Made by a program: the position numbers and the translations under genes. The notes beneath the pieces are model-generated. The model was not told where the DNA came from. It saw nothing but the letters and a program-made list of their open reading frames with translations, and searched no databases. This document shows, piece by piece, positions 1,743 to 32,874 of a stretch of DNA of 64,000 bases. Where the stretch lies: NCBI GenBank assembly GCA_025352125.1, contig JANXTZ010000030.1:1-64000 (forward strand), given 5' to 3'. Numbering within the stretch: the stretch's first letter is position 1; every line of letters starts with the position of its first letter. The DNA comes from Deinococcales bacterium. GTDB lineage: Bacteria; Deinococcota; Deinococci; Deinococcales; JAAFIG01.

Positions 1743-4691
1743 GTGTTGTTTCGATTTTTAGACAATCCGCACATCGAAGTTGACAGCCGCCGCGAAATGC
1801 TTGCCAGCACCAAATCGGTGGCGTTGTTGGTGTATTTGGCGTGTCAACAGACTTGGGTCACTCGAGACACCTTGAGTGCCTTGTTTGGCGATGACAACAC
1901 CGATGGCGACGCCTTGCGCCAACTGCGGGTGATCTTGTCTCGAGCCAGAAAATTTGGCTGGGCTGGAACGTTGGAACTCGAGGACAATCGTTTGCGGTTT
2001 AACGTTCAAACCGATTTGCAATTGTTCCGCCGAGCCATTGGGGCAGCCGATTGGCAACGGGCGACAGAATTGTACAGATCAGAATTTTTAAGTGGTTTTC
2101 AGATTCGGGCAAGCGGTTTTGAGGCTTGGCTCGAGGTCGAACGCGAAACCTGGCGGCAAGCTTGGCTGGAGGCGGCGCTGTTGTACTCGAGAAATTTGGC
2201 GGCACAAAACGACCACCTCGCCGCCAGCCATTTGCTGCACAATGTGCTGGCACTGGATGCACTTTCCGAGGATGTGCTGGCGCTGTACCTCGAGCAACAA
2301 TACCTGGCTGGGGGGCGCAGTGAGGCTCTAAAAACCTTCGAGCGTTTCCGCGATCAACTGCAGAGCGAACTGGCGTTGGAGCCGCTCGAAAGCACCCTGA
2401 AATTGGTGCAAGTCATTCGTCAAGCCGCACCGCTCGAGACCATTTCAGTTGCCAGTGTCGGCAAGTCGAGTGTGCCATTGACCGTCTTGCGCCCACCGCA
2501 ATTGATCGGACGGGGAGCAGAACGCGCCGCCCTCGAGACTGCCAGCCGGACCGTGATCTTGGTGTCCGGCGAACCTGGCTCGGGCAAGACGCGGCTGCTC
2601 GAGGAGGTCCTGGGACGCACGCGCTGGCTGGCATGTTTTGAAGGTCTGGAAAATGTGCCGTATCAACCGCTTATCGCGTTTTTGAGGTCGCAACTGTCCA
2701 CGTTGCCCGACTTGGGAGTTTACAGTGAAGACCTGGCGCGACTGATTCCAGAGGTGCTGCCAAACGCCAGCCTGCACACCGACGACCCCATCAGCGCCAA
2801 AGCAAGGCTGCTCGAGGCGCTGGCGCGTTGCTTTGAAGCCCAAGGTAAACCTATTGTGATCGACGATCTGCAATGGGCTGACCCGTCCAGTCTCGAGTTT
2901 CTGAGCTTTCTGGCGTTGCGCGGCGTGGTGAAGATTTTTGGTAGTTACCGGTCAAGTGAAATCAACCCCGCGCTTGGGAAGGTCATCACTGCTTGGCGCT
3001 CGAGTGATTCCTTGCTAGAAGTCAAACTCGAGCCGCTGACAATGGAGCACATCAACAGCTTGCTGGCGAGCCTGAGCGGTCTTGAGGCTGGACCACAGCG
3101 CTTCTCGAGTTGGCTCTCGAAACAATCGGGCGGCAACCCATTCTTTGCCCTCGAGACGCTGAAGGCTTTGTTTGAAACTGGGATGCTGCAAGAAAAGGAT
3201 GGGGCATGGACAAGCCAACTTGACGACCTGAGCCTCGATTACCAGGAGTTACGCGTCCCGAGCAAAGTCGCGGCGGTCATTGAACAACGCGTCTCGAGGT
3301 TGTCCGAACCCGCCAAACGGGCGCTTCAGGCGGCGTGCGTGATGCGCCAGGGGTTCACACCAAAAACGCTGGCGGGCATTGTTGGATTCTCGGAATTTGC
3401 GGTTTTGGACGCGTTAGAAGAGGCGCAAAACTCGAGTTTGATTGTGAATGATCATTTTGTGCACGATCTGATCCGGCAGGGGATGTACCAGAATTTACCC
3501 GAGGCGCGGCGCAAGGTTTTGCACGGCAATGTCGCACAAATGCTCGAGCGTGATGCAGAACCGCTGGTGGTGGCAGAACACTGGTTGAGCGCTGGAGATG
3601 TGAAGCGAGCTTTTCAAATGTTTTATCTTGCGGCAACGAACTACAGTGAACGCAGCCTACTTGAAGAAAGTCGGGAAGCTTTTCAACTTGCTTTGATTCA
3701 CGCCCCAACGCCTGGCTCAAAGTTTGAGACACAAACCGATTTGGCTTGGATTCAATTTTATTTGTCGAACTTTAAAGAAGCTCAACGCCTGATTGAACCT
3801 GTCCTTGCCGAAGGGCAACTTCCCGAAATTCATGCCTCTGCACTTAACCTCTGGGCTGAACTTCTTCTTTGGGGCGGACATATTGTTCAAGCCGCAATAG
3901 CCAACGCGAATGCGCTTGAAGTTGGCGAGCGAGCAGCATTGGATACCACCAACATTCGCAAGACTGGCGCACACATTGCACAAACTGAAGGGCGTTTCGA
4001 GGATGCGATAGCTTTGCTCGAGCCAATGATTGAACATTGGCGAACCCAAACAACAAACAGCAAACTTGCTGGGGCGTTAATCAGTCTAGGATCGGCACAC
4101 AATGAGCTTGGCAATTACGAAATTGCAGAGCACCTCAACAAGGAGGGTTGGGACATTGCCAAGATGCTTGGTGCAAAACTGACTCAAGTCAACGCCGCAG
4201 TGAATCTTGCCTATTCCCTTGCCCGACTTGATCGTTTTGAAGAATCGGTGAGTGTACAAGAAGAAGCCCTCCTTCTTGGCAAGTTCACCAATACCGCCAC
4301 ACTTCGCAACAACCTCGCATCAGATTACATCAAGCTTGGTCGTTTGGATGAGGCTCGAGTTGTGAGTGAAGACTTGATCCGCGAAAATGATGATCCAACC
4401 CTGAGCTGCATTTCGTGGAGTCGTTTGGCAAAAATTTATGCCCAACAAGGTCTTGAACTTGAAAAACACCAGGCTCTGGAACAAGGGATTGCCATGCTCG
4501 AAAACACCGAATACGAAGTGGCACGGGTTGGAATTGCGATTAACGTATTTGATTACGGCAGTGATGAACAACTCGAGAAATTAATGCCATACCTTCAAAA
4601 TAAACCATTTTCTAACCCGTATGCACAACAAAAGTTTGAAGAAGCCTTTAAACGTCGTTTTGGACGATCTTGGTTTGAATCAACCCCCTGA
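1743..4691 (+). CDS. SARP/AfsR-like transcriptional regulator: winged helix, BTAD, AAA ATPase, TPR
   Basis: A 982-residue probable transcription activator. Start GTG at 1743, preceded by AGGAGG at 1728-1733. Domains in order: an OmpR-like winged helix (about 1-85), a bacterial transcriptional activation domain of TPR-like helices (about 90-230), a STAND/AAA ATPase with Walker A GEPGSGKT (276-283) and Walker B VIDDLQWAD (about residue 374), then TPR-like helices to the end (about 560-950). Proteins of this build bind direct repeats with 11-bp periodicity next to -10 boxes. Such repeats occur at the promoters of the next two genes (4689-4706 and 5010-5029), so these are candidate targets. CTCGAG is sparser after base 3,600 than in the first half. 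The architecture is clear; the signal sensed is unknown. Confidence 0.88.
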   Translation: MLFRFLDNPHIEVDSRREMLASTKSVALLVYLACQQTWVTRDTLSALFGDDNTDGDALRQLRVILSRARKFGWAGTLELEDNRLRFNVQTDLQLFRRAIGAADWQRATELYRSEFLSGFQIRASGFEAWLEVERETWRQAWLEAALLYSRNLAAQNDHLAASHLLHNVLALDALSEDVLALYLEQQYLAGGRSEALKTFERFRDQLQSELALEPLESTLKLVQVIRQAAPLETISVASVGKSSVPLTVLRPPQLIGRGAERAALETASRTVILVSGEPGSGKTRLLEEVLGRTRWLACFEGLENVPYQPLIAFLRSQLSTLPDLGVYSEDLARLIPEVLPNASLHTDDPISAKARLLEALARCFEAQGKPIVIDDLQWADPSSLEFLSFLALRGVVKIFGSYRSSEINPALGKVITAWRSSDSLLEVKLEPLTMEHINSLLASLSGLEAGPQRFSSWLSKQSGGNPFFALETLKALFETGMLQEKDGAWTSQLDDLSLDYQELRVPSKVAAVIEQRVSRLSEPAKRALQAACVMRQGFTPKTLAGIVGFSEFAVLDALEEAQNSSLIVNDHFVHDLIRQGMYQNLPEARRKVLHGNVAQMLERDAEPLVVAEHWLSAGDVKRAFQMFYLAATNYSERSLLEESREAFQLALIHAPTPGSKFETQTDLAWIQFYLSNFKEAQRLIEPVLAEGQLPEIHASALNLWAELLLWGGHIVQAAIANANALEVGERAALDTTNIRKTGAHIAQTEGRFEDAIALLEPMIEHWRTQTTNSKLAGALISLGSAHNELGNYEIAEHLNKEGWDIAKMLGAKLTQVNAAVNLAYSLARLDRFEESVSVQEEALLLGKFTNTATLRNNLASDYIKLGRLDEARVVSEDLIRENDDPTLSCISWSRLAKIYAQQGLELEKHQALEQGIAMLENTEYEVARVGIAINVFDYGSDEQLEKLMPYLQNKPFSNPYAQQKFEEAFKRRFGRSWFESTP

Positions 4692-4721
4692 GACGGTCTT
4701 GAAACGCCAAATATCAATACT
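4689..4721 (+). promoter_or_regulatory. Direct repeat with 11-bp step plus -10-like AATACT (candidate SARP site)
   Basis: TGAGACG (4689-4695) and TGAAACG (4700-4706) are exactly 11 bases apart. AATACT at 4716-4721 lies 9 bases after the second repeat and 6 bases before the ATG at 4728. The geometry matches the promoter at 5010-5043. Confidence 0.45.
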
Positions 4722-4727
4722 GGTGTC

Positions 4728-4919
4728 ATGCCAGAATCTCGAGTCTTGAAAACCAAAAAAATTTGGCGCTCGAGTTTTGTGCTGCGGGTTGGTGGCGAAA
4801 CTTTAAGCCCAAAAATTGAATTGCTTGACCTGCGCACGGGGCAAAAACTCGAGTTTGAATCGTTTGAGGTTTTAAGCAAGCACCTCGAGCAGCGTCAAAA
4901 AAAGCGCGGTTTGCACTGA
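4728..4919 (+). CDS. Small conserved-type protein (63 aa), function unknown
   Basis: A basic 63-residue protein without signal peptide or membrane segment. The core reads SFVLRV followed later by FESFEVLSKHLEQ. It resembles a class of short uncharacterised proteins with an FVVRIW-like strand followed by F-S-x-x-E-L-x-x-F-L; this is recalled similarity, not a search result. It lies 36 bases after the BTAD regulator, has no ribosome site, and starts 6 bases after a -10-like AATACT. It ends just before a strong terminator (4942-4980), so it forms a one-gene unit whose promoter carries the same 11-bp repeat as the following lipoprotein gene. Coding is likely because of the promoter/terminator framing and three in-frame or near CTCGAG sites. 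Confidence 0.6.
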   Translation: MPESRVLKTKKIWRSSFVLRVGGETLSPKIELLDLRTGQKLEFESFEVLSKHLEQRQKKRGLH

Positions 4920-31219: not shown

Positions 31220-31339
31220 ACGCCCACATCCAAACAGATGGTGTTCAACGTACAACCAAATATGATCGGTCGTCTGGTGTCACCAAATCGTCCTCACCCG
31301 AACAGGGCAGCCTCAAGTGCAACGCTCAAGACGGCTGTG

Positions 31340-31345
31340 TATACT
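31340..31345 (+). promoter_or_regulatory. -10 box TATACT of sigma-factor operon
   Basis: Consensus-like TATACT 12 bases before ATG 31358 (9 before an in-frame GTG). No ribosome site follows. Confidence 0.5.
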
Positions 31346-31357
31346 TCAAACCAAGTG

Positions 31358-31915
31358 ATGATGAATGATTTGGATTGTACGGAACTGAGCAACGAGCTTT
31401 TGATGCTCGAGATCGCGGCGTGTTCTGAAGTTGCGCTGCGTGAATTGTACAAACGTTTTTCCAAACAAATTTACAGCCTGGCACGGCGCATGTTGCGCGA
31501 GGAAAGCGCCGCCGAGGATGTCACCCAGGAGGTGTTCGTGAAAATCTGGCAAAAAGCCCTGGATTACTCGAGCCTCAAGGGTGCGGTCAGCACTTGGGTC
31601 ATGACGATAGCGCATCACAGCACCGTCGATGCCATCAGACGTCGCGCCACGCAGGAAACCGTGGTGCTCGAGGACGGCGAACTCGAGCGTTACCCAGTTG
31701 ATCACGACGATGACCGCTTGGAGCAGGTCACGGTGTCTCGGGCGCTCGAGAGTCTCGAACCTGGGGAGCGCGGCTTGATTGAACTGGCGTACTTTGAGGG
31801 CTTGTCGCATTCGCAGCTTGCCACGCGCACCGGAATCCCGCTTGGTACGATCAAAACCCGTTTGCGTCTGGGGTTGCAAAAATTAAAAGCCGCGCTTGGA
31901 GAGTGGTCCGAATGA
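31358..31915 (+). CDS. ECF sigma factor (SigK/RpoE-like)
   Basis: A 185-residue group 4 sigma factor that directs RNA polymerase to alternative promoters. Region 2: ALRELYKRFSKQIYSLARRML and AEDVTQEVFVKIW, with AVSTWVMTIAHHSTVDAIRR; region 4: LIELAYFEGLSHSQLA and GIPLGTIKTRLRLGLQKLKAAL. Start assigned at 31358 just after TATACT; the frame is open 40 codons upstream. Its stop overlaps the ATG of the next gene (ATGA at 31912), the tight coupling usual for sigma/anti-sigma pairs. Confidence 0.93.
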   Translation: MMNDLDCTELSNELLMLEIAACSEVALRELYKRFSKQIYSLARRMLREESAAEDVTQEVFVKIWQKALDYSSLKGAVSTWVMTIAHHSTVDAIRRRATQETVVLEDGELERYPVDHDDDRLEQVTVSRALESLEPGERGLIELAYFEGLSHSQLATRTGIPLGTIKTRLRLGLQKLKAALGEWSE

Positions 31916-32874
31916 TAGCTCCTCTGCCTGTAAACGAAGTTTCCCGTCTTGCCGCCTTAAATCGCTATAAGGTGCTTGACACGCCATCCGAAGCGGTTTT
32001 TGATCAATTGGCTGGTTTGACCGCCGGACTGCTGAACGTGCCGATTGCGATGGTTGGTCTGATCGATCAGGAACGCCACTGGTTTAAAGCATCGGTTGGT
32101 GCAGATTTTCCGTACAACATGCGCGAGAACACGTTTTGCCAGTACACGATTCTCCAGAATGATGTGCTCTGCATTCCCGACACCCAACTCGATGATCGCG
32201 TGAACGATATTCTGCCCGTGACGCTTCTTGGCGTGCGTTTTTATGCGGGTGCGCCGTTGACCACGCCCGACGGTTTCAACATCGGCACGGTCTGCGTGTT
32301 CGATCACCAACCGCGCAGCCTCGAGCAAGCTGATCTGGACACTTTGGCGTTGCTGGCAAAACGCGTCATGGAAGCTTTGAATGACCGACTCGAGCATGGG
32401 GTCAGAGGCGATTCCAGGGATGTGATTTTGGCTTCGCTGCTGGACTCGATGGGTTTGGAGTCGTTGCCGTTGTTCGGGCAAGCCTTCAGTGAACCTGAAC
32501 CCGTTCTGGAAGATGCCGATGTCATCGCTCAAGTGTCGCAAGCCGTGCCGCAAAAACTCCCATCTGCGAACCTCGAGCAAGCCATAATCGAGCGCATCAA
32601 TACCCTGCCAGCCAAACCCGCCTTGGCTCGGGTGGTGCATTACGACTCGGAAATATTGCTGGCTCACGCTTTTGGCAGCGCAAGTGAGGGTTTTGTCTGG
32701 CAAGCTTGGGCATTCCTCGATTGTGACCCAAAAGCCCTGCCGCTCGAGGCATTTGTTGCCAGTACCAACTTTATCAGGCTGCCCGAAAACACCCGCATGG
32801 TTGGCTTGAGTCAGGAAACCAGGGGCGCAGAACATTTCGCGCCGAGCCGATTGTTGGCGCTGGGCAGAATTTAA
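31912..32874 (+). CDS. GAF-domain protein with RskA-like anti-sigma region (probable soluble anti-sigma factor)
   Basis: 320 residues, translationally coupled to the sigma gene by ATGA. Residues 8-160 are a GAF sensor domain of the LAALNRYKVLDTPSEAVFD type (SVGADFPYNMRENTFCQYTI, FYAGAPLTTPDGFNIGTVCV). The rest does not look like an enzyme: residues 165-235 are a helical segment ending VPQKLPSANLEQAIIERI, like the end of an anti-sigma domain, and 240-320 (VWQAWAFLD, then TRMVGLSQETRGAEHFAP and LLALGRI) echoes the C-terminal domain of RskA anti-sigma factors. No membrane segment is present, unlike RskA. I infer a cytosolic anti-sigma factor gated by a GAF ligand or redox signal. GAF is certain; the anti-sigma reading is inference. 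Confidence 0.65.
   Translation: MIAPLPVNEVSRLAALNRYKVLDTPSEAVFDQLAGLTAGLLNVPIAMVGLIDQERHWFKASVGADFPYNMRENTFCQYTILQNDVLCIPDTQLDDRVNDILPVTLLGVRFYAGAPLTTPDGFNIGTVCVFDHQPRSLEQADLDTLALLAKRVMEALNDRLEHGVRGDSRDVILASLLDSMGLESLPLFGQAFSEPEPVLEDADVIAQVSQAVPQKLPSANLEQAIIERINTLPAKPALARVVHYDSEILLAHAFGSASEGFVWQAWAFLDCDPKALPLEAFVASTNFIRLPENTRMVGLSQETRGAEHFAPSRLLALGRI

Follow-up and report, generated by a model that had tools for sequence, protein, structure and literature searches.

A putative cytosolic, GAF-gated relative of the anti-sigma factor RskA encoded downstream of an ECF sigma factor gene in Deinococcales

In the published sigma/anti-sigma complexes, helix 4 of the anti-sigma domain contacts sigma region 2 and helix 1 contacts region 4 (PMC7406223; PMC6852236). 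Helix 4 lies against sigma region 2.1 in ChrR and RseA (PMC6852236) and accounts for 12 of the 14 strongest couplings between sigma and anti-sigma factor, each of which involves sigma region 2 (PMC7406223). For RskA of M. tuberculosis, the cytoplasmic N-terminal portion alone is sufficient for inhibition (PMC7509140). Soluble anti-sigma factors occur in ECF11, ECF12, ECF14, and parts of ECF19 and ECF293 (PMC8999054); one of those described is ChrR, which carries a cupin sensor domain (PMC6852236). Membrane anti-sigma factors are considered ancestral, and the soluble ones are thought to have arisen from them by truncation (PMC8103513), losing the anchor but keeping the anti-sigma domain. Here, we describe an ECF sigma factor gene coupled to a gene for a protein in which an N-terminal GAF domain is followed by parts related to RskA. 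This protein is designated below as GAF-RskA.

The gene pair and the GAF domain

The window (the whole stretch of DNA analysed, 64 kb) contained the following features of the pair:

31358-31915, plus strand: ECF sigma factor gene (SigK/'sigma E' type, with sigma regions 2 and 4 but without region 3)
31912-32874, plus strand: GAF-RskA gene (320 aa, soluble product), overlapping the sigma gene by ATGA and with a homologue in each of the family's four genomes
31912-32397, plus strand: GAF domain with a long C-terminal helix, residues 1-162 (Pfam GAF; PDB 4zmu by sequence and fold; AF2)
32398-32544, plus strand: variable linker, residues 163-211 (alignment; AF2), much shorter in two homologues
32545-32604, plus strand: segment homologous to helix 4, VPQKLPSANLEQAIIERINT, residues 212-231 (profile match of 19.0 bits; AF2 helix at residues 218-231)
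32623-32874, plus strand: divergent RskA_C domain over residues 238-320, predicted as a beta sandwich of seven strands (hhalign, shuffled controls, NCBIfam, AF2 with pLDDT of about 83-95)

The sigma gene starts at ATG 31358 or ATG 31361, both in one frame. The overlap with the partner gene noticed in an earlier, sequence-only reading was confirmed: the stop of the sigma gene and the start of the GAF-RskA gene (31912) share an ATGA. The sigma factor of ~185 aa matched Pfam Sigma70_r2 (3e-17) and Sigma70_r4_2 (3e-12) and had the composition and size of an ECF sigma factor, i.e., regions 2 and 4 without region 3 and a length of about 180 aa. The closest NCBIfam models were PRK13919 'putative sigma E' and SigK, both matched below the model cut-offs.

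The sequence GTATAC was present at 31339-31344, near the start of the sigma gene, and likewise upstream of the sigma genes in L001, L023, L024, and L068. Since further open frames of the window also have it close to their starts, a shared promoter element or autoregulation is not claimed.

The N-terminal GAF domain of the partner, likewise proposed before, was recognized by Pfam at residues 27-156 with E 2.7e-10. PDB 4zmu matched the GAF part by sequence with E 2.7e-24 and was also the top fold match; the pLDDT of the AF2 model was mostly >90 over residues 1-162. This GAF domain is of a common type, present also in diguanylate cyclases and kinases. The nearest GAF paralogue in the same genome belongs to a GAF-histidine kinase on contig C70 (L003:721-2049), with 51% identity over residues 1-162, and is a possible donor of the GAF domain of GAF-RskA.

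Parts of the partner protein related to RskA

By profile comparison, the C-terminal ~80 residues of GAF-RskA are a divergent RskA_C domain. A Pfam search with the single window protein found only the GAF domain and nothing in the C-terminal half, so profile methods were needed. The C-terminal parts of four homologues, aligned by hhalign with 31 canonical RskA of Deinococcota, gave Prob 97.2, E 4.1e-11, and a score of 74.9, and the alignment reached the very end of RskA. The maximum values among 60 column-shuffled controls were Prob 1.9 and score 20.9, and thus the proposed resemblance of the C-terminal domain to RskA was borne out. In NCBIfam, the window protein had a weak match (7e-4) to PRK13920, a putative anti-sigma E whose name pairs it with PRK13919. 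NCBIfam anti-sigma models matched the C-terminus in four out of four homologues, and Pfam RskA_C matched three of the four (best E 0.0037), the window protein alone being unmatched. AF2 predicted a seven-strand beta sandwich at residues 239-319 with pLDDT of about 83-93. The fold search with the C-terminal domain returned weak fibronectin-III-like matches only (best E 0.018), with the viral library giving a similar result; no solved RskA_C structure was found. EPxGGS, which is conserved in RskA_C, is degraded in the GAF-RskA group, and the GG motif is lost.

The highest hydrophobicity of the window protein was that of the GAF core; therefore, GAF-RskA has no membrane helix, as had been read from the sequence. 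No hydrophobic stretch was present between helix 4 and RskA_C, the strands of which come directly after helix 4. With no membrane segment to cleave, regulated intramembrane proteolysis is not expected for this protein.

A profile search identified VPQKLPSANLEQAIIERI as the counterpart of helix 4 in the RskA anti-sigma domain, and in all four homologues this match was the top-scoring site of the entire protein. The scores were 19.0 bits for the window protein (P0002), 10.2 for L024, 9.1 for L023, and 15.5 for L025, with shuffle p values of 0 (0 of 2000 shuffles as high), 0.007, 0.002, and 0.001, respectively. None of the 16,547 background positions in the other predicted proteins of the window scored as high (best 6.8). 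The LE pair in the match is encoded by CTCGAG, a very abundant hexamer in this genome, and the match was therefore rescored without the LE positions; still, no background position reached the score. Helix 4 is kept in all four homologues even though their identity is only ~38% and the linker in front of it varies.

The hexamer CTCGAG occurs 424 times in the window (6.6 per kb), and the next commonest 6-base palindrome 46 times. Among the loci surveyed (L023, L024, L025, L061, and L067), its density was 5-8.5 per kb in those from family relatives, whereas two loci from other families had ~2 per kb. This abundance resembles the cyanobacterial highly iterated palindrome HIP1; a literature search returned no paper combining CTCGAG and HIP1.

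The profile of helices 1-3 of the RskA anti-sigma domain had no match in GAF-RskA. A remnant of helix 1 at residues 168-185 looked plausible by eye, but nothing was found there by this profile. The stretch from the GAF domain to helix 4 comprises ~50 residues in the window protein and is far shorter in two homologues according to the alignment; in the window protein it is mostly disordered from residue 189, with pLDDT <50 at 191-213. The complete four-helix N-terminal anti-sigma domain typical of the RskA family is absent, and the linker is too short for it in two homologues. Comparison of the profiles with RskA thus gave matches for RskA_C and helix 4 but not for helices 1-3, and of the 'helical anti-sigma-like segment' in the sequence-only reading, only helix 4 stands.

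Distribution and relation to membrane RskA

All four known genomes of the GTDB family, representing three genera, carry GAF-RskA with a sigma gene directly upstream; the genome of the window has one full-length copy. The junction with the sigma gene is ATGA in G001 and G002 and an overlap with a GTG start in G003. According to their names, the relatives are metagenome assemblies of uncultured 'Deinococcales bacterium' (JAAFIG01, JAAFJQ01, and JANYHH01). No full-length homologue was detected in the 107 other genomes of the order, where the GAF matches inspected had kinase, cyclase, or other outputs, not RskA. Full-length matches in a scan of 84,980 species genomes with two patterns from the GAF part were limited to the family relatives, and 386 cyanobacterial genomes gave no GAF-RskA match at E 1e-50. 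RskA_C is present in 51 of the 111 genomes of the order, and the inspected cases resemble membrane proteins. RskA encoded by long frames elsewhere in the order look, by eye, like ordinary membrane RskA.

The sigma factor tree places the sigmas encoded with GAF-RskA in one group with the remaining sigmas of the family (95/86), among them the RskA-paired sigma from the genome of the window; the sigmas encoded with GAF-RskA form two subgroups. The four GAF-RskA stay together in the RskA_C tree (93/95); the group could not be placed in this tree because of long branches.

At least one canonical RskA was found in each of the genomes G000, G002, and G003. In the genome of the window, the canonical sigma/RskA pair is located on a separate contig (C45). 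Genome G003 contains, in locus L024, a canonical membrane RskA (2551-3279, minus strand) and, in divergent orientation, the sigma gene (3420-3983) with GAF-RskA (3977-4882) downstream. With a regulator gene on either side, this sigma factor may have two regulators. No other sigma gene lies beside the membrane RskA of this locus, and no close paralogue of the sigma was found elsewhere in the genome. Genome G002 has a divergent sigma/RskA arrangement without GAF-RskA, and its GAF pair is on another contig. A membrane RskA gene divergent from the sigma gene, rather than downstream of it, was observed in L024:2551-4882 and L067:1501-2869. It is plausible that a single locus held both regulators and was split later, after duplication.

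Proposed function and comparison with known systems

We consider it rather probable that GAF-RskA is a cytosolic, GAF-gated anti-sigma factor which originated from RskA by domain replacement and anchor loss. The homology of RskA_C, the retained helix 4, the overlap with the sigma gene across three genera, and the clustering of the sigmas with RskA-paired sigmas argue for this. By binding to sigma region 2, helix 4 would block RNA polymerase; the sensory switch would be the GAF domain, which replaces helices 1-3 together with the membrane anchor. The protein would probably be a dimer formed through the long C-terminal helix of the GAF domain, and the RskA_C beta domain may have stayed on in the cytoplasm for docking or stabilisation. 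A signal from the cytoplasm, which the sequence-only reading took to be a ligand, light, or redox, would alter the geometry at the GAF domain and release the sigma factor. Three points stand against the anti-sigma reading: helices 1-3, the part in contact with sigma region 4 in known complexes, are missing; most of the N-terminal portion that suffices for inhibition in RskA of M. tuberculosis is gone as well; and the GAF domain is of a common type shared with diguanylate cyclases and kinases.

A more far-reaching form of this reading is put forward only tentatively. GAF-RskA could be a minimal anti-sigma factor, with the sigma held by helix 4 alone, the GAF domain replacing the bundle of three helices, and a domain of extracytoplasmic origin now located inside; in some relatives, one sigma factor would then be under both membrane RskA for outside signals and GAF-RskA for inside signals. 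Should the sigma factor still be under the control of GAF-RskA, this would illustrate how small a set of contacts suffices for an anti-sigma factor and in what way a pathway for sensing the outside can be switched over to a signal from within.

The main and serious rival is a modulator that, once bound to the sigma factor, activates or chaperones it, e.g., delivering it to RNA polymerase when the GAF domain is occupied, while a membrane RskA elsewhere inhibits. It owes this rank to the mostly missing canonical bundle and to RskA itself, which has been reported as both activator and inhibitor with the switch controlled by its C-terminal part (PMC7509140). The sigma gene of L024, flanked by both regulators and with no other close paralogue found, and the canonical RskA in G000, G002, and G003 would also agree with it. 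However, the canonical RskA in the genome of the window has its own sigma, and thus the window pair may work alone. Moreover, partners coupled to ECF sigma factors by ATGA are mostly inhibitors, and on balance we regard a modulator as unlikely.

It is still less probable that GAF-RskA no longer acts on the sigma factor, its gene being merely co-transcribed and its GAF and RskA_C domains serving another cytosolic partner. Such a loss of contact would fit the disappearance of helices 1-3 and of the GG motif of RskA_C, but all four homologues retain a recognisable helix 4 where it is expected, and in each of the four genomes the gene is still coupled to the sigma gene, though the paired sigmas are of two subgroups; the conservation of both makes this explanation less likely. 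An anti-anti-sigma factor competing with membrane RskA for the sigma factor without blocking the polymerase is conceivable where one sigma gene is flanked by both regulators, but is highly improbable, as the two RskA_C domains would sit on opposite sides of the membrane and the helix 4 contact alone is expected to block polymerase binding (PMC7406223).

The mechanism had been taken in the sequence-only reading as undescribed. This holds for the combination of GAF with RskA_C, which was not found described, but not for soluble anti-sigma factors that carry a sensor themselves, which have precedents such as ChrR. The open-access literature searched contained no description of a GAF fusion, an anchorless RskA_C, or an anti-sigma factor lacking helices 1-3. 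GAF-diguanylate cyclases and GAF-histidine kinases (e.g., 4zmu Dcsbis) have the same type of N-terminal GAF domain as GAF-RskA, including the widely conserved Cys76, but their output part is GGDEF or kinase vs. RskA-derived in GAF-RskA.

ChrR of Rhodobacter sphaeroides and other soluble ZAS anti-sigma factors are, similar to GAF-RskA, soluble two-domain proteins with a non-membrane sensor domain. In ChrR, a full zinc anti-sigma domain is followed by a cupin, whereas GAF-RskA has an N-terminal GAF sensor, helix 4 only, and no zinc motif; the HxxxCxxC motif that defines ZAS proteins such as ChrR and RsrA is absent from its sequence. Relative to the soluble anti-sigma factors thought to keep the anti-sigma domain, GAF-RskA keeps the opposite parts, helix 4 and the outside domain, with a cytosolic sensor replacing the rest. 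With RskA and the class I anti-sigma factors of the ECF18/ECF19 type (SigK-RskA, PRK13919/PRK13920), it shares the place downstream of an ECF sigma gene, RskA_C, and helix 4. It differs from RskA in the lack of helices 1-3, of the membrane helix, and of the GG motif of RskA_C, in the added N-terminal GAF domain, and in the predicted cytoplasmic location of its RskA_C.
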